Shown in pieces: positions 28,866 through 62,506 of a stretch of DNA of 64,000 nucleotides. Every line of letters starts with the position of its first letter. The stretch's first letter is position 1. Made by a program: the position numbers and the translations under genes. Under the pieces are notes generated by a model, which was not told the DNA's origin, ran no database searches, and saw nothing but the letters and a program-made list of their open reading frames with translations. This stretch comes from Nostoc sp. FACHB-973 (GTDB lineage Bacteria > Cyanobacteriota > Cyanobacteriia > Cyanobacteriales > Nostocaceae): positions 1 to 64,000 of the forward strand of contig NZ_JACJSJ010000027.1 of assembly GCF_014698115.1 (NCBI RefSeq), read 5' to 3'.

Positions 28866-28881
28866 TATTTTGAGTGATAAA

Positions 28882-29535: not shown

Positions 29536-29644
29536 ATTTCGTCATTAAAAAATTAAGATTAATCTAAGTTTATAAGTCTAGATATATAAGTTTTATTTAG
29601 ATAATTAGCCTTACATAAATCTTCTAATTCCCAATCCCCAGTCC

Positions 29645-30616: not shown

Positions 30617-30690
30617 GCGAAAAAGGTTTTTTGAAACCCGATTGTATTGCTGAAATTACTGGACTGACATACCAGACGAGATTTGAGTTT

Positions 30691-31287
30691 TTACGACTCT
30701 GGTTTCGTCAATTGTAAGGACGGCCGCCCAGAAAATTCATCATACCATTGAGCAAGTTGGGGATAGTTATGTCGCCATTGTAATTCCGGCAAACGAATTT
30801 CTAATCCTAGTGCAGAGGCGAGGGTGATATGAGCGAGCTTAGGTGTTTGGTCGAGTTTTTCGGAAATCTTCTCGAAGTAGTCTAGAATTCGCAAAGCACG
30901 CGATCGCTCTAACTCGATCACTTTAGGTGATTGCTCACTTTCGTCCCGCAATATTCGCTCCCTTGCCCAAATACTAATACCATCGATAAATGCAGTTGTG
31001 ATGCCTTCAAGCTGCTGCGAAAATCCGTCAGAATCATCAGCAACAATTTTGATTTCAGGATTTAACCGATTGAGATAACTAACGATGATCCGCGTTTCAC
31101 TCAAGATGAATCCGTCATCAGTCGCCAGGGTTGGCACTTTACCCGTCGGATTGTAATTGAGTAATTCGCTATTGCGATCGCGTACCGTCACTTTTTGCAG
31201 TTCCACGCGATCGCTTAAATTTAGCTCAATGATTGCAACCCTAACTATGCGGGCGTATTGAGATCTTTCTGTGTAAAAGAGTTTCAT
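30691..31287 (-). CDS. Glutathione S-transferase family protein
   Basis: A 198-residue GST-like protein. The N-terminal thioredoxin-fold domain (MKLFYTERSQYARIVRVAI) contains the NPTGKVPTLATDDG cis-proline loop and SETRIIVSYL glutathione-contact segment. An all-helical C-terminal domain follows. The S/Y/C residue in the active-site position is probably Ser9. It lies just downstream of the NtaA-type monooxygenase gene (29-base gap), so it may work on a product of that pathway. Confidence 0.85.
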   Translation of the reverse strand: MKLFYTERSQYARIVRVAIIELNLSDRVELQKVTVRDRNSELLNYNPTGKVPTLATDDGFILSETRIIVSYLNRLNPEIKIVADDSDGFSQQLEGITTAFIDGISIWARERILRDESEQSPKVIELERSRALRILDYFEKISEKLDQTPKLAHITLASALGLEIRLPELQWRHNYPQLAQWYDEFSGRPSLQLTKPES

Positions 31288-31316
31288 AAAAAAGTGCGAT
31301 CGCTCTTTTAGTGAAA

Positions 31317-32690
31317 TTATCTGGAAGCACCCGCCAGTTCTGGGGATGCAACTTTACTGAACTGATTTACTGGACGAGGTAAACCAAGATTCTCCCGCAG
31401 GGTACGCCCTTCATATTCGGTACGGAATAAACCCCGGCGTTGCAGTTCTGGAATCACCAAATCTACAAATTCATCCAAACCACCAGGTAGCCAAGGTGGC
31501 ATAATATTAAATCCATCAGCACCATCGTTAACAAACCAGTCTTCCAGCTGATCGGCAATTTGCTCCGGCGTTCCCAGAATTGTCCGATGTCCCCGTGCCC
31601 CAGCAATCCACAAATACAGTTGCCTAATTGTTAAATTCTCTCTGCGGGCGAGGTCAGTTATCAGCTGCAAGCGACTTTTCCCACCATTGGTATCTGGTAA
31701 ATCTGGCAGTGGCCCGTCCAAGGGGTATTTCGATAAATCGTGTCCACCCACAAGTCCTGAGAGTAGTCCTAACCCAACCGACGGATGAATTAAATCTTGA
31801 AGTTCCTGGTACTTCTCTTTCGCTTCCTCCTCAGTTCTACCAATTACCGGAAATACACCTGGCATAATTTTCAGATGATCGGGCGATCGTCCATATTTAC
31901 TCAGTCTACCTTTGACACCAGAATAAAAGGTCTGGGCTTCGGCAAGAGTTTGCTGGGCAGTAAAAATTGCCTCTGCTGTCTGTGCCGCTAAATCTTGTCC
32001 AGCCTCAGAAGAACCAGCTTGCACAATCACCGGATACCCTTGAATGGGGCGGGCTACATTCAGCGGGCCGCGCACTGAGAAATGTTGACCCTTATGATTC
32101 GGAACGTGTAGCTTGTCAGGATCGAAGTAAATACCCGATTCTTTGTCCCGTAAAAAGGCATCATCTTCCCAACTGTCCCAAAGCTTGGAAGTAACTTCTA
32201 AAAATTCCCTCGCCCGTTCATAGCGCAGTGCATGTTCCAAATGCTCTTCTCGACTGAAGTTCTTAGCTGCGGCTTCAGCAGAGGAGGTGACAACATTCCA
32301 TCCAGCACGACCCCCGCTCAAGTAATCTAGCGAAGCAAACTTGCGCGCGAGGTGAAAGGGTTCGTCATAGGTAGTTGATGCCGTTGCCACCAAGCCGATA
32401 TGCTCGGTCACCACAGATAGTGCCGATAATAAAGTCAGCGGTTCAAAGTGGACACTGAATTGTCCCGAACGGCTAAAAGCTTCTCTTCCTTTTCCTTGAT
32501 CCCAAACTGCTAAACCGTCCGCCAGAAAGAGCATATCAAATTTACCCCGTTCGGCTGTCTGTGCGAGGCGCTTGTAATGCTGAAAATTCAGACCTCCGTC
32601 CGGCTGAGCATTGGGATGTCGCCAAGCTGCCACGTGATGACCTGAACCTGGTAGAAACGCACCTAGTTTAATTTGTTTTTTGTGGCTCAT
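31317..32690 (-). CDS. NtaA/DmoA-type FMN-dependent monooxygenase
   Basis: A 457-residue flavin-dependent monooxygenase of the bacterial luciferase-like superfamily, NtaA/SnaA/DmoA/SoxA-type group. Landmarks are FLPGSGHHVAAWRHP, GKFDMLFLADG, FEPLTLLSALSVVTEHIGL and the SGGRAGWNVVTS flavin-binding motif. The family oxidises organosulfur or aminopolycarboxylate compounds with reduced FMN supplied by a separate reductase. The ATG is 103 bases from the TauD gene upstream on the same strand, which supports an organosulfur substrate. Confidence 0.9.
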   Translation of the reverse strand: MSHKKQIKLGAFLPGSGHHVAAWRHPNAQPDGGLNFQHYKRLAQTAERGKFDMLFLADGLAVWDQGKGREAFSRSGQFSVHFEPLTLLSALSVVTEHIGLVATASTTYDEPFHLARKFASLDYLSGGRAGWNVVTSSAEAAAKNFSREEHLEHALRYERAREFLEVTSKLWDSWEDDAFLRDKESGIYFDPDKLHVPNHKGQHFSVRGPLNVARPIQGYPVIVQAGSSEAGQDLAAQTAEAIFTAQQTLAEAQTFYSGVKGRLSKYGRSPDHLKIMPGVFPVIGRTEEEAKEKYQELQDLIHPSVGLGLLSGLVGGHDLSKYPLDGPLPDLPDTNGGKSRLQLITDLARRENLTIRQLYLWIAGARGHRTILGTPEQIADQLEDWFVNDGADGFNIMPPWLPGGLDEFVDLVIPELQRRGLFRTEYEGRTLRENLGLPRPVNQFSKVASPELAGASR

Positions 32691-32754
32691 TTTTTATTTC
32701 TACGAAAATTTACTTATGCTTTTTCAACTTTGAGACTGGGGATTTCGATCAAGA

Positions 32755-32793
32755 AACTTCTTCCCAGTCCCCAGTCCCCAGTCCCCAATCCCC
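32755..32793. repeat. CCCCAGT heptamer array downstream of tauD
   Basis: Four to five units of TCCCCAG type between the monooxygenase start codon and the end of the tauD-like gene. Confidence 0.85.
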
Positions 32794-33708
32794 CTATACT
32801 GCAACTGCCTCGCGTCGGTTGTATGCAGAAGAGTCACCCTTGATGGCTTGACTTTGTTTACCATCAATGCCAACTGGAATATCGCCGACGATTGTCACTC
32901 GCTGAACGTGACGGGGTTGGTTGCCGTAATCAGCAACTGCGTAGTGTTGAGTAGCGCGGTTGTCCCAGAATGCCACATCACCAACTTGCCAACGCCAACG
33001 AACTGTATTTTCGGGACGGGTTACGTAAGCTTGTAACAGTCTTAAAATATCGTCGGATTCAGTGGTTGATAGACCACGGAACTGGCGAACAAAGCCACCA
33101 ATAAATAAGCCACGTTCACCAGATTCAGGATGAACGCGTACTACTGGGTGAAGCGTTTCATATACCGTCGAAGTGAAAACAGCCCGGTAAGCCTTCACGT
33201 CTTCAGGAAGGTCAAATCCAGTTGCATAGTCGTAGGCATTGCTATGTACTGCCCAGAGTTCATCTGCAATACTACGCAGATGGTTTGGTAAATCTTGATA
33301 TGCAGTCACAGAGTTTGCCCAGATAGTATCGCCTCCGGCTGGAGGAATGACCAGTGCCCGCAAGATGGAGCCAAGGGGAGGACGGTCTACAAATGTTACA
33401 TCAGTGTGCCAACTATTCGCACGGGAAGTAGTTTTGCCGTAATTCAAATCGAGGACTTCTGGATGGTCTGGAAGTGATGGAACGGTGGGGTGAGCTGTAG
33501 TGACTTCACCAAATCTGCGGGCGAAGGCTACCTGTCCGTTAGCATCGAGTTGCTGTTGATCGCGGAAGAAAATTACTTTGTATTGAACTAAGGCTTTACG
33601 GATATCACTGATAACTTCGTCGCTCAAGTTATTACTCAGATTAACGCCAATGATTTGGGCACCGATGCGTCCGGCAACTGGTTTGATGTCAAAGTATTGG
33701 GAACTCAT
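32794..33708 (-). CDS. TauD/TfdA-family dioxygenase
   Basis: A 304-residue Fe(II)/2-oxoglutarate dioxygenase. The 2-His-1-carboxylate triad is visible as SWHTDVTF (His and Asp) and RATQHYAV (distal His), with the 2-oxoglutarate-binding Arg in RHVQRVTI. Other family parts are GAQIIGVNLSNNLSDEVISD and FFRDQQQLD. Such enzymes oxygenate taurine, alkyl sulfate or sulfonate next to the heteroatom, releasing sulfite or sulfate plus aldehyde. It is the same strand as the flavin monooxygenase and GST genes. Confidence 0.92.
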   Translation of the reverse strand: MSSQYFDIKPVAGRIGAQIIGVNLSNNLSDEVISDIRKALVQYKVIFFRDQQQLDANGQVAFARRFGEVTTAHPTVPSLPDHPEVLDLNYGKTTSRANSWHTDVTFVDRPPLGSILRALVIPPAGGDTIWANSVTAYQDLPNHLRSIADELWAVHSNAYDYATGFDLPEDVKAYRAVFTSTVYETLHPVVRVHPESGERGLFIGGFVRQFRGLSTTESDDILRLLQAYVTRPENTVRWRWQVGDVAFWDNRATQHYAVADYGNQPRHVQRVTIVGDIPVGIDGKQSQAIKGDSSAYNRREAVAV

Positions 33709-45004: not shown

Positions 45005-46105
45005 TTAACTTTTGGCTGCAACTACTTGCTGATCGCGCCGTGCAACTTCTTTTCGTACTAAAGGAATGACATCACGGCCATAAGCGATCGCATCTTCCAA
45101 AGGATCGAAGCCCCGAATCAACAAGGTAGTTACACCTGCATCATAGTAATCAACTAAGGCTTCTGCAACTTGTTCTGGTGTACCTACTAACGCTGTGGTG
45201 TTACCGGCTGCACCTGTAGCTGCTGCGATCGGTGTCCATAGACGCTTATCGTAAACTTCGTTTTTGGCTGCGAAATCCAGCAGGCGTTGTGAACCTACTG
45301 CCTGGGGTCTAGCTGTGGGAGATGTTTTCGCCCCTCCTCGCAACTCTTGAATCTTTGCCAAAATGCTATGCGCCTTTTCCCAAGCTTCTTGTTCTGTAGC
45401 CCCAAGGATCGGTCGCAGGGACACGCTGAAACGAATAGAGCGATCGGGGGGTAAGGCAGCCCGAACTTCAGCAATGCGTTCTTTGACTGCGGCAATTGGT
45501 TCACCCCACAAGGCGTAAACATCACTGTGTTTTGCTCCCACTTTCACCGCTGGGCTGGATGCACCACCAAAGTAAAGCGGGATATAGGGTTTTTGTAGGG
45601 GCTTGATTGCAGAGAAAGCATCCTTGACGCGGTAGAATTCGCCTTCGTAATCAAAAGGAGTGTCACTTGTCCAGGTGCGACGAAGGATTTCTAAATATTC
45701 ATCAGTGCGGCGGTAGCGGTTATCATGATCTAACCAGTCACCATCTTTTTGTTGATCGGCATCGCTACCGCCGGTAATGATATGTATTGCTATGCGACCG
45801 TTGGTAAAATGGTCAAGGGTAGCTGCCTTGCGGGCTGCTAGAGTTGGTGCGACAAAACCCGGTCTGTGGGCAATTAAAAAGCCCAATCGCTCGGTTGCAA
45901 CTGCGGCAAAACTCGCAACAGTCAAACCATCAGGGCTACTAGAACTATAGCCAATTAATACTTTATCAAAGTCTGCTTCTTCATGGGCTTTAGCAAATTC
46001 CCGAACATAAGCTGGGTCGATAATGTCATCGCCCAGAGTACTTGTTGTACTATTTAATTCGGAAGCAGGTTTTGTCCGGATTAATCCAATAAACTCGACT
46101 GGCAT
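45005..46105 (-). CDS. LLM-class flavin monooxygenase (SsuD-like)
   Basis: A 366-residue FMNH2-dependent monooxygenase of the alkanesulfonate monooxygenase family: FDKVLIGYSSSSPDGL, LGFLIAHRPGFVAPTLAARK, the flavin loop GRIAIHIITGGSDADQQKDGD and YFGGASSPAVKVGAKHSDVY. It is shorter at the N-terminus and less similar to SsuD than the protein at 61358, so a different sulfonate or related substrate is likely. It lies 159 bases downstream of the Mrp-type gene on the same strand. Confidence 0.88.
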   Translation of the reverse strand: MPVEFIGLIRTKPASELNSTTSTLGDDIIDPAYVREFAKAHEEADFDKVLIGYSSSSPDGLTVASFAAVATERLGFLIAHRPGFVAPTLAARKAATLDHFTNGRIAIHIITGGSDADQQKDGDWLDHDNRYRRTDEYLEILRRTWTSDTPFDYEGEFYRVKDAFSAIKPLQKPYIPLYFGGASSPAVKVGAKHSDVYALWGEPIAAVKERIAEVRAALPPDRSIRFSVSLRPILGATEQEAWEKAHSILAKIQELRGGAKTSPTARPQAVGSQRLLDFAAKNEVYDKRLWTPIAAATGAAGNTTALVGTPEQVAEALVDYYDAGVTTLLIRGFDPLEDAIAYGRDVIPLVRKEVARRDQQVVAAKS

Positions 46106-46264: not shown

Positions 46265-47347
46265 TTAATATATTGCCATCTGGGCATTCAACACAGAGAA
46301 AAAAGTCGCATCCAAAGCTGTGGCGATTTGGACAAATACTCGGCTTGTTGTTGACTTAGAGTCAGCGAGTGTCAGCGGTTCTCCTGTATCACCTCCATTA
46401 CAAATGCGGGGATCGATGGGAACTTGTCCCAAAAGTGGTGCTTTGAGTTCATCTGCCAATTTTTGACCGCCACCAGTGCCGAAAATCGATGTTTTTTCAC
46501 CGCTACTACTGATGAAATAGCTCATATTCTCGATAATGCCGAGAACCGGAACCCCCACTTGGCGAAACATATGAATACTGCGGCGCACATCGGAAACAGC
46601 AACTTGTTGGGGAGTCGTTACTAATATGACTCCACAAATTGGGCTTTCTTGGACAATGGTGATTTGGGCATCACCAGTACCGGGAGGAAGGTCTATTAAT
46701 AAATAATCTAGTTCTCCCCACTCGACTTCGTGGATAAACTGGGTGATGATTTTGTGTAGGACTGGCCCACGCCATGCTAAAGGATGATCCGGTTCTGCTA
46801 ATAGTCCCACAGACATTACTTTAATGCCATAAGCCGACAAAGGTAAAAATCTCTGACCGTTGGGAGTATCAATAACTTGAACTTCAGATTTACCCAGTCC
46901 CAGCATTTGGGGAACATTAGGACCATAGACATCAGCATCCAATAGACCAACTTTAGCACCAGCTAATCTCAAAGCAACAGCTAGATTAACTGCGGTTGTA
47001 GATTTACCAACCCCCCCTTTTCCACTGGAGATTGCTAAGGTGGTTTTTACCTCCGGAATGGTGCATAGTTGAATGTAAGTTTTTTTGCACCAAGATAAAA
47101 GTGATAATACTGTTTTAATTTCTGCTTGTAATTGTTGCTGGTGAGAACCGATATAAAGCCGCAGGTAAACGTAGTCATCAACAACACGCAGATTTCGCAC
47201 CATTCCTAAAGTAACGATGTTGTTTTTCAGGGTGGGTTCGATGATTTGCTTAAGAAGTTGAATAACTTCTTGCTGACGGGCGATGATCTGGGGATCGGGA
47301 GGAGAAGTTTCTACTTGTTGATGTAATGATATGGAATTGTGTACCAT
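46265..47347 (-). CDS. Mrp/NBP35-type Fe-S cluster carrier ATPase
   Basis: A 360-residue ApbC/Mrp family P-loop ATPase. It has an N-terminal MIP18-like domain (about 20-95), the deviant Walker A SSGKGGVGKSTTAVN with two lysines, DADVYGPNVPQMLG, DYLLIDLPPGTGDAQ (Walker B) and GIIENMSYFI. Family members carry and deliver [4Fe-4S] clusters. The usual C-terminal CxxC is not evident (ISSSGEKTSIFG instead). The ATG at 47345-47347 was preferred to an upstream TTG. It sits in the same-strand group as the 8-Cys ferredoxin and AprA-like flavoprotein and could mature that ferredoxin. Confidence 0.88.
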   Translation of the reverse strand: MVHNSISLHQQVETSPPDPQIIARQQEVIQLLKQIIEPTLKNNIVTLGMVRNLRVVDDYVYLRLYIGSHQQQLQAEIKTVLSLLSWCKKTYIQLCTIPEVKTTLAISSGKGGVGKSTTAVNLAVALRLAGAKVGLLDADVYGPNVPQMLGLGKSEVQVIDTPNGQRFLPLSAYGIKVMSVGLLAEPDHPLAWRGPVLHKIITQFIHEVEWGELDYLLIDLPPGTGDAQITIVQESPICGVILVTTPQQVAVSDVRRSIHMFRQVGVPVLGIIENMSYFISSSGEKTSIFGTGGGQKLADELKAPLLGQVPIDPRICNGGDTGEPLTLADSKSTTSRVFVQIATALDATFFSVLNAQMAIY

Positions 47348-47382
47348 AATTAATTTTGATCGCAATGAGTTTTGTTCTTGAA

Positions 47383-47637
47383 TCTTGCCATAATAATTCG
47401 TAATTCGTAATGGGCTTCTCTACGAGACGCTACCGCGAACGCCCCGCTACGCTAACGTAATTCGTAATTATTACCCCTTAGCTAAAGTTAGCTGCTCTGA
47501 ATAATGATAATTGTTGATTTTTTAATTCATAAATTAAAGGGCTTGTAGCCTTAAAAAATTAATTATTAATTACAAATTAATAAATTTTTAATTACGAATT
47601 ACGAATTACGAATTATTTTTTCAATTGCTCGTTGCGC
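47383..47637. repeat. TAATTCG heptamers with a nested palindromic insertion
   Basis: ATTCGTAATT units at 47393-47413 are interrupted by GGGCTTCTCTACGAGACGC and CGCGAACGCCCCGCTACGCT (47414-47458), then resume at 47457-47472. Further units lie at 47590-47615. The nested piece resembles repeats at 48898-48920 and 59128-59150. Confidence 0.8.
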
Positions 47638-48555
47638 TTAAATAGACACATCGCGATCGGGGTCATCCAGTGCTTGTTTTAGGGCATTCAGAGCATCGTA
47701 ATTACCCAAATTACCAAGGGCGATCGCTGCTTCTTTTCGCACATCAGAATATTCATCTGTTAACGCTTCAATTAATTCAGGTAACAAGTTTTCATCTGGG
47801 GTTTTTTGTAATACTTGAATGGCAAACTTTCGCACTTGCCAATGTTCATCTTTGAGAGCAATTTTCAAAGCCGGAATTGCTTCGGCATTAGCGTGAATCG
47901 CCAGAGATTTTGCCGCATTTCTTCGCACCTGCCAATCATCATCAGAAGTCAGTGCTTGAGTGAGTAATCCTACAGCTTCTTTATCTGCTAAATGACCTAA
48001 AGTTAAAGTGGCTGCACGACGCACATTGTTATCTGGATCGTCTATTAAAGACAAAACTGGTGGACATATTTGCACCTGGTTTAAATAACGAACAGTTGTT
48101 ACAGCAGCTTCCCGCAGTTGGCTATTTTCTGATTCAAAAAAGGACAACACCGCAGGTAGAGATTGGACATCATGAATCTTGCGTAACAAAATTAGCACGT
48201 TAAGATTGAGATTGATATCTTCTTGGTGTAAGGCATCTAGTAACAGCAGCAGATGATCTGGGGTAACTAATTCACCTAAAGCTGATAGTGCCTCACTGCG
48301 AATTTCGGCATCGGGAGAAGTGAGAGATTTTAGTAAAGCCGGAACAGCAGCGGGATTGGCAATTTCCCAGAGTGCAGATACCGCAATTTTTTGTACTGCT
48401 GGGTTTTCGTCTTGGAGGGCGAGAATTAACGCCTCAACTGCTGCATCTTCTCCCAAGTGTTGTAAAGATTTTACCGCAACCAAGCGATCGCTGACTTCTG
48501 GCGATCGCAACATTTCCAACCATTGATTTAATTCCGAATCTGTATCCACAGTCAT
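47638..48555 (-). CDS. HEAT-repeat protein
   Basis: A 305-residue all-helical protein built of about nine HEAT/PBS-lyase-type repeats (for example VPALLKSLTSPDAEIRSEAL and NVRRAATLTLGHLADKEAV), regularly spaced by about 31 residues. Such scaffolds bind partner proteins or, in cyanobacteria, phycobilin-related clients. No catalytic residues are visible. It follows the ferredoxin gene by 9 bases and is probably in the same transcript, which suggests it serves that complex as a scaffold or chaperone. Confidence 0.88.
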   Translation of the reverse strand: MTVDTDSELNQWLEMLRSPEVSDRLVAVKSLQHLGEDAAVEALILALQDENPAVQKIAVSALWEIANPAAVPALLKSLTSPDAEIRSEALSALGELVTPDHLLLLLDALHQEDINLNLNVLILLRKIHDVQSLPAVLSFFESENSQLREAAVTTVRYLNQVQICPPVLSLIDDPDNNVRRAATLTLGHLADKEAVGLLTQALTSDDDWQVRRNAAKSLAIHANAEAIPALKIALKDEHWQVRKFAIQVLQKTPDENLLPELIEALTDEYSDVRKEAAIALGNLGNYDALNALKQALDDPDRDVSI

Positions 48556-48564
48556 TGGGAAACC

Positions 48565-48792
48565 TCAGCGCAACAAAAAGGGAATTTGTACAGTGATTGC
48601 ATTGGTGGGACATTCTTTTTCACAAGGGAGACAAAACCAGCATTCGTCATATTTCATATAGGCTTTGCCTGTCTCTGGGTTTTTTGCTAATACATCCAAG
48701 GGACAAACTTCAATGCAAGCAACACATTTTTCTAAACATTTAGATTCATCGACGATTACCGGGACATCTACTCTTTGGGTGATTAAAGCCAT
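48565..48792 (-). CDS. 8-Cys dicluster ferredoxin (AprB-like)
   Basis: A 75-residue protein with two [4Fe-4S] motifs: C19-x3-C23-x2-C26-x3-C30P and C51-x2-C54-x2-C57-x3-C61P. The tail after the second motif (TNAITVQIP) and the KAYMKYDECWFC segment recall the beta subunit of adenylylsulfate reductase. The AprA-like flavoprotein at 49451 is on the same strand, with a GNAT gene and one inserted repeat between them. The two probably form an electron-transfer pair. Confidence 0.88.
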   Translation of the reverse strand: MALITQRVDVPVIVDESKCLEKCVACIEVCPLDVLAKNPETGKAYMKYDECWFCLPCEKECPTNAITVQIPFLLR

Positions 48793-48838
48793 ATTTTTAC
48801 TTGATTGTTTAAATTGTTAACTATGGATGAATACGATT

Positions 48839-48953
48839 CAGTTAAGGCTACAACTCTTGGTCAAATTAAATTTTTTTAACGAACCGCTAAGGACGCATTC
48901 GCGCAGCGTCTCGTCAGAGAAGGACGCAAAGAGAAGAAAGAAATGCTTAACTG
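48839..48953. repeat. Small inverted-end repeat, copy 2
   Basis: Same ends (CAGTTAAG / CTTAACTG) and core as 44582-44682, with a nested 27-base insertion ATTCGCGCAGCGTCTCG... between the GGACGC units. It separates the ferredoxin gene from the GNAT gene. Confidence 0.8.
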
Positions 48954-48974
48954 AATTGTATTGGACTATGAATT

Positions 48975-49433
48975 TTACAATGTTTTAGCAAAAGTCATTG
49001 ATTGTTTGATATTTCTATAGCCAATTTTTTCATAAAACAAATGAGCCTCTTTTCGTTTGATATTAGAATTGAGCCTTATGCCATCACATCCAAGTAAACT
49101 AGCCCATTGTTCAATCTGCTGCATTAAAAATCTGCCAATTCCATGATTTCGATAATCTTTATCTACAACTAAACCAAGAATCATCGCTTGTTTTGGCATC
49201 ACTATTAAGTCATAGATGTGTGCGTGTACCCAACCAATTACATAATCATTTTCTACAGTTGCAACATAGACAATGTGAGAATTATTATTTTCGATTTGCA
49301 GAAGACGCTGTTCTATTTGTGTTTTCGTAGCAGGATAGTTAAGCTGCTCAGAAAGAATAGCTATTTGTTCTGCATCCTGAATTTTTGATTGCCTAATTTT
49401 AACTTGCACATCAGTAGAAACTTTATTAGTCAT
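48975..49433 (-). CDS. GNAT N-acetyltransferase
   Basis: A 152-residue GNAT protein. Motif A is ILGLVVDKDYRNHGIGRFLM (acetyl-CoA pyrophosphate loop RNHGIG), followed by HLFYEKIGYRNIKQ, the typical C-terminal strand. The substrate is unknown. It lies 17 bases downstream of the AprA-like gene, so it is probably cotranscribed with it. Confidence 0.9.
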   Translation of the reverse strand: MTNKVSTDVQVKIRQSKIQDAEQIAILSEQLNYPATKTQIEQRLLQIENNNSHIVYVATVENDYVIGWVHAHIYDLIVMPKQAMILGLVVDKDYRNHGIGRFLMQQIEQWASLLGCDGIRLNSNIKRKEAHLFYEKIGYRNIKQSMTFAKTL

Positions 49434-49450
49434 AATCCTATGCAGAGCTT

Positions 49451-51163
49451 TTATCGGACTGCTACATCGTAAAACTCTTTTTGTAAATCTATGTCAATAA
49501 TATAAGGCTCCACTGGACGCTTAAAAAGTACCATTTCTCCTGTGTCATGCTTTTTCAAATTGACGTGACAAAACCATTCTTCATTATTTTTATCTGGAAA
49601 ATCCAAACGATAATGATATAAACCCCAGCGGCTTTCCCGGCGATATAAAGATGCGCGTGCTGCCATTTCTGCACAATCACGAATAAAATACACTTCCATG
49701 CAGCGCATTAGTTCGTGAGGATCTCGCGCTCCCATTTGCGCTAGTGTTTCTTCATAGCGGAGAAAGTTATGCAAGCCAATTTCCATTTTGTTAGCAGATT
49801 TGGGCGGTTGTAAATAATCATTCACCAGTCGGCGTAACTTATATTCTACCTGGGTGTGAGGAATGCCATTTGGCTGATTTAAAGGTGCATAAATTCTAGA
49901 TTTTTCTGCTTCTAAAAAATCAAACTCCGGCTCTAAATGCTCCAAATTTTGAATATATTCAATTGCATTTTCTCCCGCCAATCTTCCAAACACAAATGCA
50001 CCAATCATATAATTATGGGGGACGCTGGCCATGTCTCCGGCTGCATAAAGTCCTGGTACTGTGGTTTCTGCTTTTTCGTTCACCCAAACACCAGATGCAC
50101 TATGTCCACTACATAACCCGATTTCGGAAATGTTCATTTCAACTGCATGGGTGCGGTAGTCTTCACCTCTACCCTGATGAAAACGTTCTCTACTAGGACG
50201 CTCATTTGCCCATAAAATAGATTCAATTTCGGAAATTGTATCGTCATCCAAATGGTTCATTTTCATTTGAATGGGGCCTTTACCAGAGTTTAATTCTTTC
50301 CAAATTTCTAGCATCATTTGACCACTCCAGTAATCACAATTAATGAAGCGGTGTCCTTCGGCGTTGGCTGTATATGCTCCAAATGGCCCAGCAACATAAG
50401 CGCAGGCGGGGCCGTTGTAATCTTTAATTAGGGGGTTGATTTGGAAGCATTCGATGTTGCTCAGTTCTGCGCCTGCATGGTACGCCATTGAGTAGCCATC
50501 GCCAGCATTGGTAGGGTTTTCGTAAGTACCGTAGAGATAGCCTGATGCAGGTAGTCCCAAGCGTCCGCAGGCTCCTGTGCTGAGGATGACGGCTTTTGCT
50601 TGGATGACGACGAAATCGCCGCCGCGCACGTCAAACCCAACTGCACCGATCGCTCTACCATCTTTTACTAAGACTCTCGTGGCCATCACCCGGTTAGTCA
50701 CCTTGACTTTATGGCGCTTGACTTGTCGGGTGAGAATTTGCTTAAGATCTTTACCTTCTGGCATGGGCAACACATATTTACCTACCCGATGCACTTGTTT
50801 GAGGTCATAATTACCTTGGGGATCTTTTTGGAACTTAACGCCCCAGCTTTCCAACTCTTGAATAGTTTCGTAACCCAGCTTTCCGGTTTGGTAGACAGCT
50901 TTTTGGTGGACAATGCCATCATTGGCAATGGTGACTTCACGCACGTACTGTTCTGGGGTGGAATGTCCGGGGATGACGGCTGTGTTTACCCCATCCATTC
51001 CCATTGCGATCGCACCACTGCGACGAATATTCGCTTTTTCCAAAATTAAGACTTGGCGATCGCTATTAGCCTGTTTAGCTTTAATTGCAGCCATTGTCCC
51101 CGCCGTACCGCCCCCAATGACTAGGACATCCGTTTTTATCCACTGTGTATTTACGTTTGTCAT
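49451..51163 (-). CDS. AprA-like FAD flavoprotein (fumarate reductase/SDH family)
   Basis: A 570-residue flavoprotein of the fumarate reductase/succinate dehydrogenase/adenylylsulfate reductase alpha superfamily. The FAD motif is VLVIGGGTAGTMAAIKAKQA, followed by LILEKANIRRSGAI, AVILSTGACGRLG, and TTVPGLYAAGDMASVPHNYM with GAFVFGRLAGENA near the C-terminal half. The C-terminal helical part contains RWGLYHYRLDFP. It lacks a signal peptide and is soluble. The neighbouring 8-Cys ferredoxin, SsuA-like lipoprotein and SsuD-like monooxygenase suggest an oxidoreductase acting on a sulfur compound. It is a relative of AprA but unlikely to be a true APS reductase. Confidence 0.85.
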   Translation of the reverse strand: MTNVNTQWIKTDVLVIGGGTAGTMAAIKAKQANSDRQVLILEKANIRRSGAIAMGMDGVNTAVIPGHSTPEQYVREVTIANDGIVHQKAVYQTGKLGYETIQELESWGVKFQKDPQGNYDLKQVHRVGKYVLPMPEGKDLKQILTRQVKRHKVKVTNRVMATRVLVKDGRAIGAVGFDVRGGDFVVIQAKAVILSTGACGRLGLPASGYLYGTYENPTNAGDGYSMAYHAGAELSNIECFQINPLIKDYNGPACAYVAGPFGAYTANAEGHRFINCDYWSGQMMLEIWKELNSGKGPIQMKMNHLDDDTISEIESILWANERPSRERFHQGRGEDYRTHAVEMNISEIGLCSGHSASGVWVNEKAETTVPGLYAAGDMASVPHNYMIGAFVFGRLAGENAIEYIQNLEHLEPEFDFLEAEKSRIYAPLNQPNGIPHTQVEYKLRRLVNDYLQPPKSANKMEIGLHNFLRYEETLAQMGARDPHELMRCMEVYFIRDCAEMAARASLYRRESRWGLYHYRLDFPDKNNEEWFCHVNLKKHDTGEMVLFKRPVEPYIIDIDLQKEFYDVAVR

Positions 51164-51269
51164 TTGTCATTTGTCCTTTATCATTTGTTTTATAGCCAAT
51201 AGCTAATGACGACTTTCGCAAAATTAGTAATTAATTACGAATTACGAATTACAAATTACGAATTACAAA

Positions 51270-52343
51270 TTATTTCTTCCCTTGCAAAACTATTTCTTTA
51301 ACTTTAATTTCTTTGGGGATCAATTTGATTTTATAAAAAGTATCTGCAACCTCTTGTTGTTTACTAATCACTTCATCCGTGAGCGGAAGTACATCATACT
51401 CGCGCCGCTTTTCAGCTATCTCCAACACAGAAGCATCTATTCCCAATGCTGGGGAAAGGAGTTTAGCAACATCACTGGGATTACTTTTCGCCCAATCACT
51501 AACTTTCTTAACCTCATCCACAACTGTTTTCAAAGCATCCGGCTTGGTGTCAACAAAAGATTTAGCCGCGAGATAATAACCACGATTGGGAGCTAATCCC
51601 GTTCCATCTGTTAAAGTGCGTGCGCCTGTTGCTGCTTCTGCTGCGGCTAAGTACGGGTCCCAAATTGCCCAAGCCTCGACGTTCTTACTTTCAAAGGCAG
51701 CGCGAGCATCGGCTGGTGGCAGAGTTTTTGGCTGAATATCGCTGTATTTTAGTCCTGCCTTTTCTAAAGCTCTGACTAATAAATAGTTAGCATTAGAACC
51801 TTTAGCAAAAGCAACTCTTTTACCTTTGAGTTCAGCTACACTTTTAATAGGTGAATCTTTAGGAACCAGGATAGCTTCAGCCTTAGGACTCCAAGGATCG
51901 TAGGCAACATAAACTAAAGGAATTCCCCCCGCTTGGGCAAATATTGGTGGTGATTCCCCAGTATAGCCAAAGTCAATGCTACCTGCGTTTAATGCTTCCA
52001 ACATCGGAGGTCCAGCAGGAAATTCTGACCAAGTTACCGAAGCACCGGAGGCTGCAAAGGCTTTCTCTAAATCCCCTCTTGCTTTAAGCGCATAAAGGAT
52101 AGTTGATGCTTTCTGGTAACCAATACGAACTACAGTGCTGCTAGTTGTCTGGGTTGTTTGGGTCGTTCCAGTGTTGCTTGTGGTTGGAGAACAACCAAAA
52201 ACAGCCAATGCTAAACCAAGTCCGACTGTAAACATTAAGGAAAAGGTGTAAATCCTTTGCTGTTTTAATCTCTTGAGGAAGGCTATGTTTCTGCCCGCCG
52301 CAGACATGGCAATGCTCAGCAACCGAGTTGGAAAGAACTTCAT
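51270..52343 (-). CDS. ssuA: SsuA-like aliphatic sulfonate-binding lipoprotein
   Basis: A 357-residue ABC-transporter solute-binding protein of the SsuA family: RIGYQKASTILYALKARGDL, ALNAGSIDFGYTGESPPIFAQ, LKGKRVAFAKGSNANYLLVRAL and AWAIWDPYLAAAE. The signal peptide ends in lipobox AVFGC, so Cys51 would be lipidated. The ATG at 52341-52343 was chosen because GGAGG (complement of 52350-52354) lies 6 bases upstream. Codons further upstream are encoded by the left end of a TnpB element. It probably works with the SsuBC transporter at 59356-61075. Confidence 0.9.
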   Translation of the reverse strand: MKFFPTRLLSIAMSAAGRNIAFLKRLKQQRIYTFSLMFTVGLGLALAVFGCSPTTSNTGTTQTTQTTSSTVVRIGYQKASTILYALKARGDLEKAFAASGASVTWSEFPAGPPMLEALNAGSIDFGYTGESPPIFAQAGGIPLVYVAYDPWSPKAEAILVPKDSPIKSVAELKGKRVAFAKGSNANYLLVRALEKAGLKYSDIQPKTLPPADARAAFESKNVEAWAIWDPYLAAAEAATGARTLTDGTGLAPNRGYYLAAKSFVDTKPDALKTVVDEVKKVSDWAKSNPSDVAKLLSPALGIDASVLEIAEKRREYDVLPLTDEVISKQQEVADTFYKIKLIPKEIKVKEIVLQGKK

Positions 52344-52544: not shown

Positions 52545-53792
52545 ATGTTTATGTACTCGACTCAGAAAAATCAATTACGCAATCTGAGCAAAGCTGAATT
52601 CTCGGCTTTGAGAGAGTTGTGCAGGCTGAGTAAGAACCTCTATAATGTTGGTCTTTACACTGTCCGCCAGTACTTTTTCGAGGAACGTAAGCACTTGCGC
52701 TACGAATCTGCTTACCATCTGTGCAAAAAGAACGAGAACTATCAACTTCTCAATACTGACATCGCACAGCAAACGCTCAAGGTAGTAGATCGCACCTTTA
52801 ACAGCTTCTACAGCTTGATTAAAGCGGTTAAGTCTGGAGTGTTTCAGCAGAAAGTGAGATTGCCTCACTACTTGCCCAAAGACGGGTATTTCGTGCTGAT
52901 AATTCCCAGAATTCAAGTCAAAGATGGGAAGTTTAAAGTACCGATGTCCAATGCCTTTAAGCGGCAATTTGGTGAGGTGACGATCGACTTTCCCTCTCGA
53001 CTCAGTTCTGAAACTATCAAGGAAGTTAGGATTCACCCCAAATATGATGCTCGATTTTTTGAGGTTGAGTACATATCTAAAAGTGAAACCGAACCTGTAG
53101 AAACCTTTCCAGGAAATGCGATGGCGATGGATTTGGGATTGGACAATCTGGCTACTTGTGTCGATACCAATGGGGCATCCTTTATTGTGGATGGACGCAA
53201 ACTTAAATCTATTAACCAGTGGTTTAACAAGGAAAATGCTAGATTGCAATCGATTAAAGATCGACAAAAAATCCAGAAGCTTACCGAACGTCAAGCAAGG
53301 CTTTATATCGCCCGCACCAATCGAATTCGAGATTACCTGAACAAGACGGCTAGGCTGATAATCGACCATTGCATCAAACATCAAATCGGTTGTTTGATAG
53401 TTGGATACAACCCTGGTATCAAGCAAGAGATTAATATTGGTAGCCACAACAATCAAAACTTTGTGCAAATACCCTTTCACAACTTGAGAAATAAACTCAA
53501 GTCTTTGTGCCAACGGTACGGATTGATTTACAAAGAACAGGAGGAAAGTTACACGTCTAAATCCAGCTATTTGGATAGTGACGAACTGCCCATCTACAAT
53601 GCCAATAAACCAGCTACTTACCAGTTTTCTGGTAAGAGGATTAAGCGGGGTTTGTATCGGAGTAAAGAGGGACATTTAATTAATGCTGACGCTCAAGGTG
53701 CGGCAAATATTGGACTTAAAAGTAAGCAGAATGGTTTTACCGGACTGTCTAGAGGCTGTTTGGCACAGCCGTTACGAATCAAAATCTGTTAA
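52545..53792 (+). CDS. tnpB: TnpB with rearranged RuvC-II site
   Basis: A 415-residue TnpB-family protein. RuvC-I Asp196 (AMDLGLDN) and RuvC-III Asp382 (NADAQGAANI) are present. The usual RuvC-II Glu is absent: the position reads LIVGYNPGIKQ (Gly287). A Glu pair (Glu333/334) in EQEESYTSKSSYLD further along is the probable replacement. Zinc-ribbon cysteines are missing. Members of this lineage have been described as having a shifted catalytic glutamate. The start is at 52545; a Met two codons on is possible. Confidence 0.88.
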   Translation: MFMYSTQKNQLRNLSKAEFSALRELCRLSKNLYNVGLYTVRQYFFEERKHLRYESAYHLCKKNENYQLLNTDIAQQTLKVVDRTFNSFYSLIKAVKSGVFQQKVRLPHYLPKDGYFVLIIPRIQVKDGKFKVPMSNAFKRQFGEVTIDFPSRLSSETIKEVRIHPKYDARFFEVEYISKSETEPVETFPGNAMAMDLGLDNLATCVDTNGASFIVDGRKLKSINQWFNKENARLQSIKDRQKIQKLTERQARLYIARTNRIRDYLNKTARLIIDHCIKHQIGCLIVGYNPGIKQEINIGSHNNQNFVQIPFHNLRNKLKSLCQRYGLIYKEQEESYTSKSSYLDSDELPIYNANKPATYQFSGKRIKRGLYRSKEGHLINADAQGAANIGLKSKQNGFTGLSRGCLAQPLRIKIC

Positions 53793-54575: not shown

Positions 54576-55775
54576 ATGTCACAGTTAGAACAAGCGCTGC
54601 CAGACACCTTTATAACCAAAAGCTTAGAAACGATCCCGAATATTTTCCACCAGGTTGAAACTTTGGCCAAGGACTTTGCTACCCGTGCAGGGGCACACGA
54701 CAAAGACGCTTCCTTTCCTTTTGAGAATTTTACAGCTTTGCATGAGGCAGGACTGCTCAGCCTCACCATCCCCCGCGAACTAGGTGGTCAGGATTTGGGG
54801 CTAGAGAGTATCTGCCGAGTAATTGAAGGCATAGCGCATGGTGATGCTTCCACCGCCCTAGTACTGACAATGCACTATCTCCAACATGCCCATGCAGCTC
54901 GTAGTCGTCGCTGGCCTCCAGAAGTATACAAGCGGGTGTGTCGTGAATCAATCGAAGGCATTGCGCTGCTGAATGCTGCCCGTGTGGAACCAGAGTTAGG
55001 CACCCCAGCCAGAGGTGGATTGCCTGCTACTATTGCCGAACGGACAACAGAGGGTTGGCGTTTAACAGGTCACAAACAGTACACCACAGGTAGTCCCATC
55101 CTCAGCTACTTTGTTGTTTGGGCACGGACAACAGAAGATGAACCACAAGTTGGGAATTTTCTGGTTCGTCGGGATCTTCCTGGTTTGCGAATTGTCGAAA
55201 CCTGGGATCACTTGGGGATGAGAGCAACCGGCAGCCATGACCTGATATTAGACAATGTATTAATTCCCCCAGAATACGCCGTTGATATCCGCCCCATCTC
55301 TGCTGCGCCTTCTTTTGACCCGTTGATTTCCACTTGGGGCAGCTTGACAGTGAGTGCCTTATATCTCGGTGTTGCTACTGCTGCGCGAGATTGGCTGATA
55401 AAATATCTCTGGGAGCGATCGCCATCTAATTTAGGAGAGCCACTAGCAACTCTACCACGCTTTCAAACCGCCGTCGGTGAGATGGAAGCACTGCTATTTG
55501 CAAACCGGAGACTCATTTATAGTTTGGCTCAAGATATCGACAAGGGCGAGTATGAACCTAACGTAGGATTACAGGCACAAAGTGTTAAATATCTGACTAC
55601 AACTAACTCGATTCGTGCCGTAGAGATTGCCTTGGAATTAACTGGAAATCCTGGTCTGTTGAAAAAGAATCCTTTAGAAAGACACTACCGTGACGTTCTG
55701 TGCAGCCGTATCCACACACCGCAAAATGACGTTATTTGCCAATCTTTAGGAAAATCGGCGTTGAAAGTTAAGTGA
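54576..55775 (+). CDS. Acyl-CoA dehydrogenase-like flavoprotein (SfnB/DszC-like)
   Basis: A 399-residue acyl-CoA dehydrogenase fold protein: LHEAGLLSLTIPRELGGQDL, GWRLTGHKQYTTGSPILSYF, MRATGSHDLILDNVLIPPEY and the C-terminal helical region ending PQNDVICQSLGK. The catalytic glutamate of true dehydrogenases is not evident. In organosulfur regions such proteins (SfnB, DszC, related monooxygenases) oxygenate sulfur compounds with reduced flavin. Here it lies downstream of the 63/42 repeat, in the same region as ssu genes. Confidence 0.85.
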   Translation: MSQLEQALPDTFITKSLETIPNIFHQVETLAKDFATRAGAHDKDASFPFENFTALHEAGLLSLTIPRELGGQDLGLESICRVIEGIAHGDASTALVLTMHYLQHAHAARSRRWPPEVYKRVCRESIEGIALLNAARVEPELGTPARGGLPATIAERTTEGWRLTGHKQYTTGSPILSYFVVWARTTEDEPQVGNFLVRRDLPGLRIVETWDHLGMRATGSHDLILDNVLIPPEYAVDIRPISAAPSFDPLISTWGSLTVSALYLGVATAARDWLIKYLWERSPSNLGEPLATLPRFQTAVGEMEALLFANRRLIYSLAQDIDKGEYEPNVGLQAQSVKYLTTTNSIRAVEIALELTGNPGLLKKNPLERHYRDVLCSRIHTPQNDVICQSLGKSALKVK

Positions 55776-59355: not shown

Positions 59356-60126
59356 TCAACTACTCAGCTGTAATAACTGGTTGCTTGGCTGAGTATTTTC
59401 ATTGTTCATTACTCGTTCTAAAACTGCTTCTCTAATATTGATAAACTGTTCATGACTTCTATCTCGTGGGCGTGCAAGTCTCACAGGTAAATCTAAAGTA
59501 ATCTGCCCTGCTTCAATCAGAATCACTCGGTCTGCCAATGCTACTGCTTCTTCTACATCATGAGTAACTAAAAATGCAGTAAACTTGCGCTCTAGCCACA
59601 AATTCTCAATCAAATGCTGCATCTCTAGGCGAGTGAGAGCATCCAATGCTCCCAAAGGTTCATCTAACAATAACAAACGTGGTTGACTCACTAATGCTCT
59701 TGCTAATGAAACCCGTTGGCGCTGTCCACCAGATAATACGTGAGGCCATTCCTCAGCTCTATCCTCAAGTCCAACTTTCTCGAGTGCCCACTTGGCTCTT
59801 TCACGCCAATTTCCTTGCAAGCCTAACCCCACATTCTCAATCACCCGCTTCCACGGTAGTAAACGGGGGTCTTGAAACATTACTGTTACAGACCGGCTGA
59901 GTTTACGTAGTGGTTCTCCATCTAGTAAGATTCCGCCTGAACTCGGTTTATCCAATGCTGACACCAGACGCAATAAAGTACTCTTACCGCAACCACTACG
60001 TCCTACAATGGCAACAAACTCACCTGGTGCAACTTCTAAATTCAACGAATTTAAAACATTTTTTCTGCCAAAATCCTTCGTCAGATCCAAAATACTTAAT
60101 TGTGTACCTTGTACATTTGAACTCAC
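59356..60126 (-). CDS. ssuB: Sulfonate ABC transporter ATP-binding protein (SsuB)
   Basis: A 256-residue ABC ATPase of the SsuB/NrtD/TauB family. Walker A is [11 protein letters not shown], the Q loop is [10 protein letters not shown], the signature is [15 protein letters not shown], Walker B is [12 protein letters not shown] and the H loop is LVTHDVEEA. It energises import of aliphatic sulfonates with the permease at 60251. The 124-base gap to ssuC is unusual; the usual ssu operon order is kept but the binding-protein gene is displaced to 51270. Confidence 0.93.
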
Positions 60127-60250: not shown

Positions 60251-61075
60251 CTATGCCCTTTGGTAATTAGGATTCCAAGCCAAAAACTTTCTTTCTAATG
60301 TTCTGGCAGTGGCATCTGCTAATTTGCCTAACAAAGCATAAATAACAATACTCAATACCACAACATCTGTTTGCATAAATTCACGAGCATTCATCGCCAT
60401 ATAGCCAAGCCCAGAATCTGCTGCAATGGTTTCTGCAACAATTAGTGTTAGCCACATAATACCCAAGGAAAAACGGACACCAACAAGAATCGAAGATAAA
60501 GCTCCAGGAAAAATTATTTGCCACAAAAGTTGGGGTGTTTTCAATCCGTATACTTTTCCCATTTCAATCAGTCCTGGATCTACACTACGAATCCCATGAA
60601 ATGTATTGAGATATAGCGGAAAAAATACTCCCATAGATACTAGAAATAATCTAGCTTGGTCGCCAATACCAAACCAGAGAATTACTAGTGGAATTAATGC
60701 CAAATTAGGGATAGTACGGAGCATTTGCAGGGAACTATCCAATAACCTTTCGGCTATACGGGAAAAGCCATTGAGCAATCCCAAACCGAACCCAATGCTA
60801 CCACCAACTATGAAACCAGATATGGCACGCCCAGCACTAATTCCTATGTGTTGAAACAGTTCTCCAGTTGAGGCTAATCTAATTGCTGTGGCAATTACAC
60901 CACTAGGAGCTGGTAAAATTCTGCTTGAAAGTAGACCAGTTCTAGAAGAAAATTCCCAAAGTACTAGCACGAGAACAGGTACAATCCAAGGAACTATTTT
61001 GTCAAATTGTGGGTTTTGTAGCAGCCCATTTAGGGATATGTTACTACTTTTGCTGTGTTTGAGGGTGATAGTCAT
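60251..61075 (-). CDS. ssuC: Sulfonate ABC transporter permease (SsuC)
   Basis: A 274-residue permease with about six TM segments. It has the EAA-loop region (GLKTPQLLWQIIFPGALSSI) and ends in the typical SsuC tail (AIVIYALLGKLADATARTLE-like, REFMQTDVVVLSIVIYALL). It pairs with SsuB and forms the inner-membrane channel. Confidence 0.92.
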   Translation of the reverse strand: MTITLKHSKSSNISLNGLLQNPQFDKIVPWIVPVLVLVLWEFSSRTGLLSSRILPAPSGVIATAIRLASTGELFQHIGISAGRAISGFIVGGSIGFGLGLLNGFSRIAERLLDSSLQMLRTIPNLALIPLVILWFGIGDQARLFLVSMGVFFPLYLNTFHGIRSVDPGLIEMGKVYGLKTPQLLWQIIFPGALSSILVGVRFSLGIMWLTLIVAETIAADSGLGYMAMNAREFMQTDVVVLSIVIYALLGKLADATARTLERKFLAWNPNYQRA

Positions 61076-61357: not shown

Positions 61358-62506
61358 TTATGAGGCAGCTGTTAGTTGTTTAGCAAATTTTTCATTGGCG
61401 GTTGTTTCGCCAAAATGACTCACGACTTGTGGTATTGGAGGTGCAGATTGGTTCTGCAAAGGTAGGCGTGGGAATAATAATTCAGCGGTGCGATATGCTT
61501 CTTCTAAGTGCGGATATCCAGAAAAAACAAAAGTTTCTATTCCTAGTTCTTGATATTCCAGCATCCTGGCGGTAACGGTGTCGGGATCTCCAACTAAAGC
61601 AGTACCAGCACCACCCCGCACTAATCCAATTCCTGTCCAGAGGTTGGGGCTAATTTCTAGGGTTTGCCGAGAGCCATTATGTAGTTGACTCATGCGCCGC
61701 TGTCCTTCAGAATCAGAACTAGCAAGGTCTTTTTGAGCTGTGGCGATCGCTTCTTCATCCACATACTTAATTAACTCATTGGCTGCATCCCAAGCCGCAG
61801 ACTCGGTTTCTCGCACAATTACATGCAAACGAATACCAAAACGTACTGTTCTGCCTTGTTCTGCTGCCAGTCGCCGAACTTCAGCAATTTTTTGTGCAAC
61901 TTGTTGCGGAGGTTCTCCCCAAGTCAGATACACATCTATATGTTTGGCAGCAACTCGCTTGGCAGCAGCAGATGAACCACCAAACCACAAAGGTGGATAG
62001 GGTTTTTGAACTGGCGGGAATAGGAGTTTACCACCTTTGATGTCTAGGTAGTTTCCTTTAAAATCAACTGTTTCACCGCTGACGATACCCCGCCAAACAT
62101 GCAAGAATTCATCGGTTAAATCATAGCGATCGTCATGACTCAGATGCAAGCCATCCCCAGCAAGATGCACCGGATCTCCACCTGTCACCACATTAATCAA
62201 CAATCTTCCCTTAGAAATCCGGTCAAATGTTGCTGCCATCCGTGCCGCAGCGCCAGGAGAAGTGATTCCAGGACGAATTGCCACGAGAAATTTCATTTGC
62301 TTGGTAACAGATATGAAAGCCGCAGCAGTAATCCAAGCATCTTCACAAGAACGCCCTGTAGGTAACAATGCTCCTGTGTAACCTAAACTATCTACAGCTT
62401 GGGCAATTTGCTGCAAATAATCAGGTGTAGCAACACGAGAGCCAATATCTGTGCCTAAATAGCGTCCGTCACGAGATCCAGTAGGAATAAACCAAAGAAT
62501 TTGCAT
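61358..62506 (-). CDS. ssuD: FMNH2-dependent alkanesulfonate monooxygenase (SsuD)
   Basis: A 382-residue SsuD of normal length. Family segments: [76 protein letters not shown] and the sulfonate-loop region [18 protein letters not shown]. It desulfonates C1-C14 alkanesulfonates to aldehyde and sulfite with FMNH2 from a reductase, which is not in this window. It precedes ssuC and ssuB on the minus strand, with TTTAGAT-type repeats in the 282-base gap. Confidence 0.95.

Follow-up and report, generated by a model that had tools for sequence, protein, structure and literature searches.

An AprAB-type flavoprotein–ferredoxin pair with HEAT and Fe-S helper genes in Nostoc sp. FACHB-973 as a candidate organosulfur reductase

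The DNA analysed here, a 64,000-nucleotide stretch of the genome of Nostoc sp. FACHB-973 (referred to below as the window), contains an operon for a flavoprotein and a small ferredoxin that resemble the two subunits of adenosine 5'-phosphosulfate (APS) reductase, AprA and AprB, with genes for a sulfonate-binding protein and for putative Fe-S helpers alongside. All seven genes of the set described in the initial annotation were confirmed on the minus strand, with unchanged coordinates. In order of transcription these encode an SsuA-family sulfonate-binding lipoprotein with a predicted role in uptake (51270..52343), a 570-aa AprA-like flavoprotein, the putative catalytic alpha subunit (49451..51163), a GNAT acetyltransferase inserted between the two subunit genes (48975..49433; PF00583), a 75-aa AprB-like 2[4Fe-4S] ferredoxin, the putative beta subunit (48565..48792), a HEAT-repeat partner protein (47638..48555), an Mrp/ApbC-type NTPase with an FSCA domain and a putative Fe-S carrier function (46265..47365, TTG start; PF10609, 317 bits; PF01883, 34 bits against a cut-off of 23.5) and an SsuD-related LLM flavin monooxygenase (45005..46105). 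The intergenic gaps, from the SsuA-like gene onward, are 106, 17, 182, 9, 272 and 159 nt. The SsuA-like protein exceeded the cut-offs of TIGR01728 (255.1 bits, cut-off 163.5) and PRK11553 (312 bits, cut-off 299), and its top PDB match was the aliphatic sulphonate-binding protein 2x26 (E 1.3e-75). The ATG start of its gene is preceded by GGAGG, and a lipobox-like LAVFGC was read by eye.

The NCBI product name of the flavoprotein is fumarate reductase/succinate dehydrogenase flavoprotein subunit, which is the name of the model NF006131 (1013.7 bits, cut-off 587). A score of 927.4 bits was obtained against PRK13800, a longer model whose first part is a flavoprotein and whose C-terminal part matches the HEAT protein of the window (PF13646; PRK13800 positions 609–887 of 898). 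AprA and AprA-like models gave 206.6–321.8 bits. Setting aside NF006131 and PRK13800, the other sdhA, frdA and aspartate oxidase models listed gave at most 168.5 bits, far under their cut-offs, and the nadB model gave 118.2 bits against a cut-off of 452.75. The closest solved relatives were the alpha subunit of the 3'-phosphoadenosine 5'-phosphosulfate (PAPS) reductase (PAPSR) of Methanothermococcus (8a8o_A, E 8.2e-72) and then AprA. In a 28-row phylogenetic tree, which sampled 17 of 113 family flavoproteins, a branch with support of 100/97 separated these 17, together with three AprA/PAPSR rows, from eight others. The latter were Escherichia coli SdhA, the host's own SdhA (L002) and NadB (L006), both above family cut-offs, a flavoprotein from a Cupriavidus metallidurans CH34 record (L021) and four further host flavoproteins. 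The family was sister to AprA/PAPSR and not nested inside it. Addition of a TcuA row from CH34 gave a family fork of 82/98 that was drawn open, with long branches meeting; support was 100/97 without TcuA and 100/100 when AprA and the four cyanobacterial paralogues were also left out. Those four host members of the fumarate reductase superfamily (C262, C220, C184:65944-67437 and C24; L003, L004, L005 and L007) had no NCBIfam model above cut-off, and the one at C184:65944-67437 lies 2 kb past the window end.

Alignment of the 113 flavoproteins identified an active site that is partly shared with AprA and PAPSR. Asn60, the equivalent of Archaeoglobus fulgidus AprA Asn74, and His354, the equivalent of the PAPSR His, are invariant (113/113). 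The position of AprA Arg265, which we take to be an active-site, sulfate-binding residue, is Leu245 in 113/113 flavoproteins and remains Arg in PAPSR. The roles assigned here to the Asn74, His and Arg265 positions of AprA are presumed, and so is the equivalence of His354 to AprA His398, which follows the PAPSR alignment; the AprA compared consisted of two pieces of sequence, with the segment holding His398 outside the alignment. The FHPT and ANRLGG motifs of SdhA, presumably the region of its dicarboxylate-site residues, are not conserved. The residues aligned with those of AprA and PAPSR suggest that FAD–sulfur chemistry may have been retained and, since Leu replaces Arg throughout, that the enzyme probably acts on neither APS nor PAPS.

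The ferredoxin subunit shows the same affinity. All eight cysteines and Trp52, which follows Cys51, are invariant in 112/112 sequences, including that of the window, and the Trp aligns with the CWxC of AprB and of the PAPSR beta subunit. Matches in the PDB included 3gyx_B, 8a8o_C and 1jnr_B, with FwdF polyferredoxins matching better. For AprB and the PAPSR beta subunit, a passage of PMC10322725 describes a proposed part of this Trp in electron transfer. In terms of sequence, the flavoprotein and the eight-Cys ferredoxin are thus an APS-reductase-type (AprAB) pair, as the initial annotation had supposed.

The distribution of the operon was investigated in two sets of cyanobacterial loci, a first set of 20 and an independent set of 30 from genomes not previously used, with reference proteins fixed beforehand, and in a survey of one genome per species. 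The survey yielded at least 589 confirmed relatives, of which the best 80 from named organisms were mapped as the non-cyanobacterial loci; these lean to proteobacteria because the first query row was an Acidithiobacillus sequence. The neighbourhood search that the initial annotation had called for showed that the flavoprotein–ferredoxin pair recurs in cyanobacteria and proteobacteria, with the ferredoxin at 19/20, 29/30 and 80/80 loci. The core of flavoprotein, ferredoxin and HEAT protein was found in cyanobacteria, alpha-, beta- and gammaproteobacteria, Acidithiobacillus and an actinobacterium. A search of a plasmid collection at E ≤1e-40 gave 54 records; identity was at least 57 % for 53 of them and 29.6 % for the remaining one, from Ilyobacter. 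In 13 annotated non-cyanobacterial plasmids the ferredoxin was always present (13/13) and HEAT was a separate gene in 12, being fused to the flavoprotein in the thirteenth (Tsukamurella). At 92 of 93 loci outside cyanobacteria, no more than 212 nt separate the flavoprotein gene from the ferredoxin gene that follows it; the sole exception is Tsukamurella L016, where the ferredoxin gene lies about 3 kb upstream. This adjacency, with HEAT nearby in nearly all loci, indicates that the arrangement is not due to chance. The operon is real and widespread, and is misnamed as fumarate reductase. Ilyobacter has a separate AprA-like pair (L061 7977-9971) flanked by cysC and cysD; in the tree, the flavoprotein of this pair clusters with the PAPS reductase of the methanogen.

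Among cyanobacteria, sampling across the phylum detected the flavoprotein in 17 of 386 genomes, and sampling within the order in 47 of 388; named relatives come from Nostoc, Fischerella and other cyanobacteria. Two layouts were distinguished. Type I comprises an ABC transporter resembling SsuA/TauA, a long LysR gene in divergent orientation and a flavoprotein–ferredoxin–HEAT–Mrp series, often with YeiH or TauE exporters. The LysR-type regulator (L010 6664-8676 and relatives) is about 670 aa long, with LysR domains matching the N-terminal 280 or so residues alone. Type II, the layout of the window, runs SsuA–flavoprotein–variable insert–ferredoxin–HEAT, in most cases followed by Mrp. In the window the insert is the GNAT gene; elsewhere it consists of HAD, methyltransferase, GNAT or VOC genes, or of MetY and MetX, with TauD in some. 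MetY and MetX, identified from L049 (TIGR01326, 718.5 bits, cut-off 495.1; PRK00175, 409 bits, cut-off 331), lie between the subunit genes at 4/20 and 2/30 loci. The GNAT enzyme and the SsuD-like LLM enzyme, both included in the system by the initial annotation, are lineage-specific accessories and not core: GNAT is present in the window and at just 4/20 and 7/30 cyanobacterial loci, and an LLM enzyme of the window type is found at 1/20 and 1/30. The LLM gene is real and its product is, by sequence score, an SsuD relative and not SsuD (PRK00719, 245.7 bits; 241–246 bits to SsuD models with cut-offs of 510 and 518). The arrangement of the window is repeated in one other genome (L207), down to the SfnB-like and SsuD-like genes, with the LLM gene in the same place.

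HEAT genes were detected at 19/20 and 29/30 cyanobacterial loci and at 78 of the 80 named non-cyanobacterial loci, both misses among the latter (L072 and L124) stopping at contig ends. The HEAT protein of the window ends about 13 residues short of its closest relative (305 vs 318 aa). In cyanobacteria Mrp accompanied the pair at 19/20 and 26/30 loci, with 15 and 24 of these genes, respectively, sharing its strand. The window Mrp is a second copy, with a paralogue in the host (G000:C10) that is 53 % identical. At the non-cyanobacterial loci no Mrp was detected at 35 % identity or more (0/80) and DUF971 was present at 64/80, including most proteobacterial loci; DUF971 was found at 0/20 cyanobacterial loci, making the two mutually exclusive in the mapped sets. 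A CxCxxC like that of HCF101 occurs in 68 of 72 DUF971 proteins. FSCA, ParA and DUF971 parts are joined in one protein in HCF101 according to the relevant passage of PMC7980591, which also states that cyanobacterial ParA proteins are without FSCA; the window Mrp has an FSCA domain, contrary to that statement. The replacement of Mrp by DUF971 in most proteobacterial loci is consistent with a cluster-assembly role and supports a dedicated Fe-S step for the pair, in line with the initial annotation, in which HEAT with Mrp or DUF971 would be the putative helpers.

To assess the link with sulfur metabolism, genes for sulfonate, sulfite or methionine-sulfur functions were counted beside the pair. 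Such genes were present at 18/20 first-set loci, an enrichment that is partly circular since the reference proteins were drawn from six of these loci. In the independent set at least one was found at 23/30 loci, compared with 1/20 random loci of 20 kb from six cyanobacterial genomes of the first set, which served as controls for both sets. Without binding proteins the same count was 13/30 vs 0/20. TauE and YeiH were each found at 5/20 first-set loci; one locus (L041) adjoins a sulfatase and a relative of the formylglycine-generating enzyme. The best 80 non-cyanobacterial loci included GntR at 77 and a 470-aa SsuA/TauA-related binding protein at 61; that of Cupriavidus had 2x26, the aliphatic sulphonate-binding protein, as its best PDB match. 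The flavoprotein groups with AprA/PAPSR and, in cyanobacteria, lies beside sulfur genes, on both counts the opposite of the outcome that the initial annotation had named as refuting it, a fumarate reductase or NadB relative lacking any link to sulfur. Electron-carrier genes join the operon at some of the best 80 loci: FdxA at 14, a GltD/NfnA-like flavoprotein at seven (best model PRK06567, under cut-off) and ferredoxin–NADP reductase (FNR) at three. The GltD/NfnA-like protein is a fusion (1153 aa, L060 10574-14035) that was also seen at L063, L065, L070, L083, L087, L135 and L139, in operons that include FdxA; the hosts are Acidithiobacillus, Thiobacillus, Hydrogenophilales and Burkholderiales.

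On balance we favour, by a modest degree of belief, an assimilatory AprAB-type organosulfur reductase that is fed by sulfonate uptake and served by dedicated Fe-S helpers; we infer the substrate class, the reductive direction, the product and the helper role from sequence. A sulfonate-family ABC transporter, of the SsuA type here and with the 470-aa SsuA/TauA relative elsewhere, would import a sulfonate or a similar oxidised sulfur compound. Electrons would come from photosynthetic ferredoxin in cyanobacteria or, in some proteobacteria, from NADPH through FNR/FdxA-type partners, the FdxA, GltD/NfnA-like and FNR genes of these operons being read as an NADPH-driven electron supply. They would enter the eight-Cys ferredoxin subunit and pass the invariant Trp beside the second cluster to the FAD of the alpha subunit, which would act on the imported compound, most simply by a reductive S–X cleavage that releases sulfite. 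Sulfite could then be converted by ferredoxin–sulfite reductase and enter cysteine or, with MetX/MetY, homocysteine, and excess sulfite might leave through TauE/YeiH exporters. The host genome (9.5 Mb) encodes CysH and ferredoxin–sulfite reductase elsewhere, so released sulfite could be used. The HEAT protein, with Mrp in cyanobacteria or DUF971 at most proteobacterial loci, would be devoted to assembling or targeting the two-cluster subunit.

Several observations weigh against the reductase. Outside cyanobacteria the sulfur link is thinner and rests mainly on the 470-aa binding protein, which had SsuA_fam as its best model at 122–137 bits, under the cut-off of 163.5, and which was missing from 19/80 loci. 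Seven other sulfur families were sought there and any of them was found at 10/80 loci, a count with no random control (SsuA 4, TauD 4 and DmoA type 4; TauE, YeiH, SfnB and SsuD-like LLM 0). Taken with the tree and the cyanobacterial neighbourhoods, an undescribed sulfonate-linked oxidoreductase, as put forward in the initial annotation, remains likely. Even in cyanobacteria, seven of the 30 independent loci were without a sulfur neighbour, several of these being on short contigs. Genes for FNR and FdxA are minority neighbours and their products could also carry electrons away, MetY would accept sulfide or a thiol as well, and an oxygenase might instead receive the electrons of the pair. For the helpers, the Mrp gene is on the opposite strand at 4 of 19 cyanobacterial loci. 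The CxxC of Mrp/ApbC carriers is the cluster-bridging motif; it occurs in 10/19 cyanobacterial module Mrps, and was sought in the window Mrp and the host's other Mrp and was absent from both. The proposed cluster-helper role gains from the near-universal HEAT gene and from the DUF971 exchange, and loses from the window Mrp itself.

An alternative that we consider unlikely is that the pair is an electron-transfer system feeding oxygenases (SsuD-like, DmoA-like, TauD or SfnB-like), as proposed for AsfAB with aromatic sulfonates. The window and some cyanobacterial loci do contain oxygenase genes, and a section of PMC4267179 describes the AsfAB reductase/ferredoxin pair as required for aromatic desulfonation in Pseudomonas putida S-313, where a LysR regulator and a binding protein are its neighbours. 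Against this, a search for four oxygenase families (DmoA type, TauD, SsuD-like LLM and SfnB; 35 % identity or more) found none at 73 of the 80 named loci, and a mere carrier would not need the Asn and His that are common to AprA/PAPSR and invariant here. A C. metallidurans megaplasmid record taken as CHR2, where AsfRAB is reported in part of PMC2864759, held nothing above 28 % to the flavoprotein. AsfAB is thus probably not this family, AsfA itself not having been identified in that record. The best CH34 match, L021 (28 % over residues 6–387), is a fumarate reductase/NadB relative under the cut-offs of the 25 models listed. A pair at L017, at first taken for AsfAB, proved to be TcuA/TcuB, above family cut-off.

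It is improbable that the pair works oxidatively, as an AprAB-like dehydrogenase that takes electrons from sulfite, or from the carbon moiety of what is imported, and passes them to ferredoxin. Family members do occur in Acidithiobacillus and Thiobacillus, and the AprAB of sulfur oxidisers runs in reverse; MetX/MetY and uptake systems alongside the pair in cyanobacteria point instead to sulfur gain, and no Qmo or AprM partner was named among the annotated neighbours at 16 loci, for which the gene tables are incomplete. Assimilatory reduction of APS or PAPS, as in Methanothermococcus, is decidedly improbable. The Methanothermococcus PAPS reductase is the closest solved relative, with an alike two-subunit layout and the Asn and His kept, but the Arg265 position, Arg in PAPSR, is Leu in every family flavoprotein, and the adjacent transporters are of the sulfonate type, in contrast to the Ilyobacter pair with its cysC and cysD neighbours. 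CysH and Sir are located elsewhere in the host, and no ATP sulfurylase or APS kinase gene (sat, cysC/D/N) was named within about 8–9 kb at 16 annotated family loci, the PLSDB gene tables being incomplete. An ordinary fumarate reductase, succinate dehydrogenase or L-aspartate oxidase, as implied by the product name and superfamily membership, is hardly credible given the position of the host SdhA and NadB across the tree, the loss of the FHPT and ANRLGG motifs, a partner that is an eight-Cys ferredoxin and not of the SdhB type, and the sulfur neighbourhood in cyanobacteria.

Organosulfur genes are abundant in the rest of the window. Immediately upstream of the SsuA-like gene is a TnpB/OrfB-like transposon ORF (52545-53792, plus strand; translation read by eye), which may have come between this gene and the more distant ssu genes on that side. 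The ssu genes encode an SsuB-like ATPase (59356..60126, minus strand; PRK11247, 354.8 bits, under the cut-off of 395) and an SsuC permease (60251..61075, minus strand; PRK11365, 353.6 bits, cut-off 347), which are possible partners of the SsuA-like protein, and a true SsuD (61358..62506, minus strand) by family-model match. An SfnB-like acyl-CoA dehydrogenase is encoded at 54576-55775 on the plus strand (125 bits to SfnB, under cut-off), and two tandem D-2-hydroxyacid dehydrogenase genes lie between it and the SsuD–SsuC–SsuB set. A second organosulfur block (28089-33708, minus strand) comprises genes for a TauE/SafE exporter, an EamA transporter, a glutathione S-transferase-like protein, a DmoA-type monooxygenase and a TauD-like dioxygenase. 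Three further SsuA-like genes are clustered at 75–80 kb of the host contig (C184), past the window end, and the organosulfur island may continue there.

Sulfate esters and sulfonates are given as major organic sulfur forms in soils in a passage of PMC4267179. The operon appears to serve organic-sulfur scavenging in cyanobacteria, and probably in many soil bacteria too. A published description of the operon or enzyme was sought in one open-access literature collection and none was found; a term search of transcriptome and proteome studies on sulfur sources gave no passage on the flavoprotein. To our knowledge, aerobic routes to sulfonate sulfur use oxygenases. If the reductase reading is true, cyanobacteria, rhizobia, pseudomonads, Burkholderiales and an actinobacterium would have a second, reductive route to sulfonate sulfur, and many 'fumarate reductase' annotations would be corrected (at least 589 relatives). 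The Mrp/DUF971 exchange and the HEAT fusion also make the roles of DUF971 and of bacterial HEAT partners directly testable. A bolder extension, tentative and on the whole doubtful, is that aerobes possess a widespread and so far unrecognised reductive sulfonate-sulfur route in which an AprAB-type enzyme minus the sulfate-binding Arg carries out a ferredoxin-driven C–S split of an imported sulfonate, aided by its own bacterial equivalent of the machinery that inserts Fe-S clusters in the eukaryotic cytosol. By analogy, the HEAT protein would be an adaptor for client proteins like MMS19, which is itself a HEAT protein, and Mrp or DUF971 a split HCF101.

Comparison with known systems showed similarities to several without identity to any one. 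Methanothermococcus thermolithotrophicus PAPSR (MtPAPSR, 8a8o) and dissimilatory AprAB share with the family an FAD alpha subunit, a small 2[4Fe-4S] beta subunit with eight cysteines and a bridging Trp, the Asn, the His (with PAPSR) and a C-terminal E[ST]RW..Y..R.D.P motif, but the family has an invariant Leu for Arg at AprA position 265 and is flanked by sulfonate-type transporters, HEAT and Mrp/DUF971. SsuEADCB and TauABCD are alike in transporter class; these systems are oxygenolytic and, as far as we know, have no AprAB-like pair, HEAT or Mrp. AsfRABC of P. putida S-313, described in part of PMC4267179 as active under sulfate limitation, likewise combines a reductase, a ferredoxin and a binding protein for sulfonate sulfur, although the CH34 record expected to hold asfRAB gave no match above 28 %, an indirect comparison made with no AsfA sequence by name. 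A functional precedent for reductive sulfite release is the isethionate reductase IsrBHDK of Rhodobacter capsulatus, for which a section of PMC11423573 proposes reductive C–S cleavage of a sulfonate imported by SsuCAB; as presented there, IsrBHDK is nitrogenase-like and anaerobic, and its proteins are unrelated to the AprAB-type pair. Finally, the cyanobacterial FSCA–ParA Mrp and the proteobacterial CxCxxC DUF971 protein correspond to parts of the FSCA–ParA–DUF971 Fe-S scaffold HCF101, differing from it in that the parts are separate proteins of which one or the other is used, with no plastid client.

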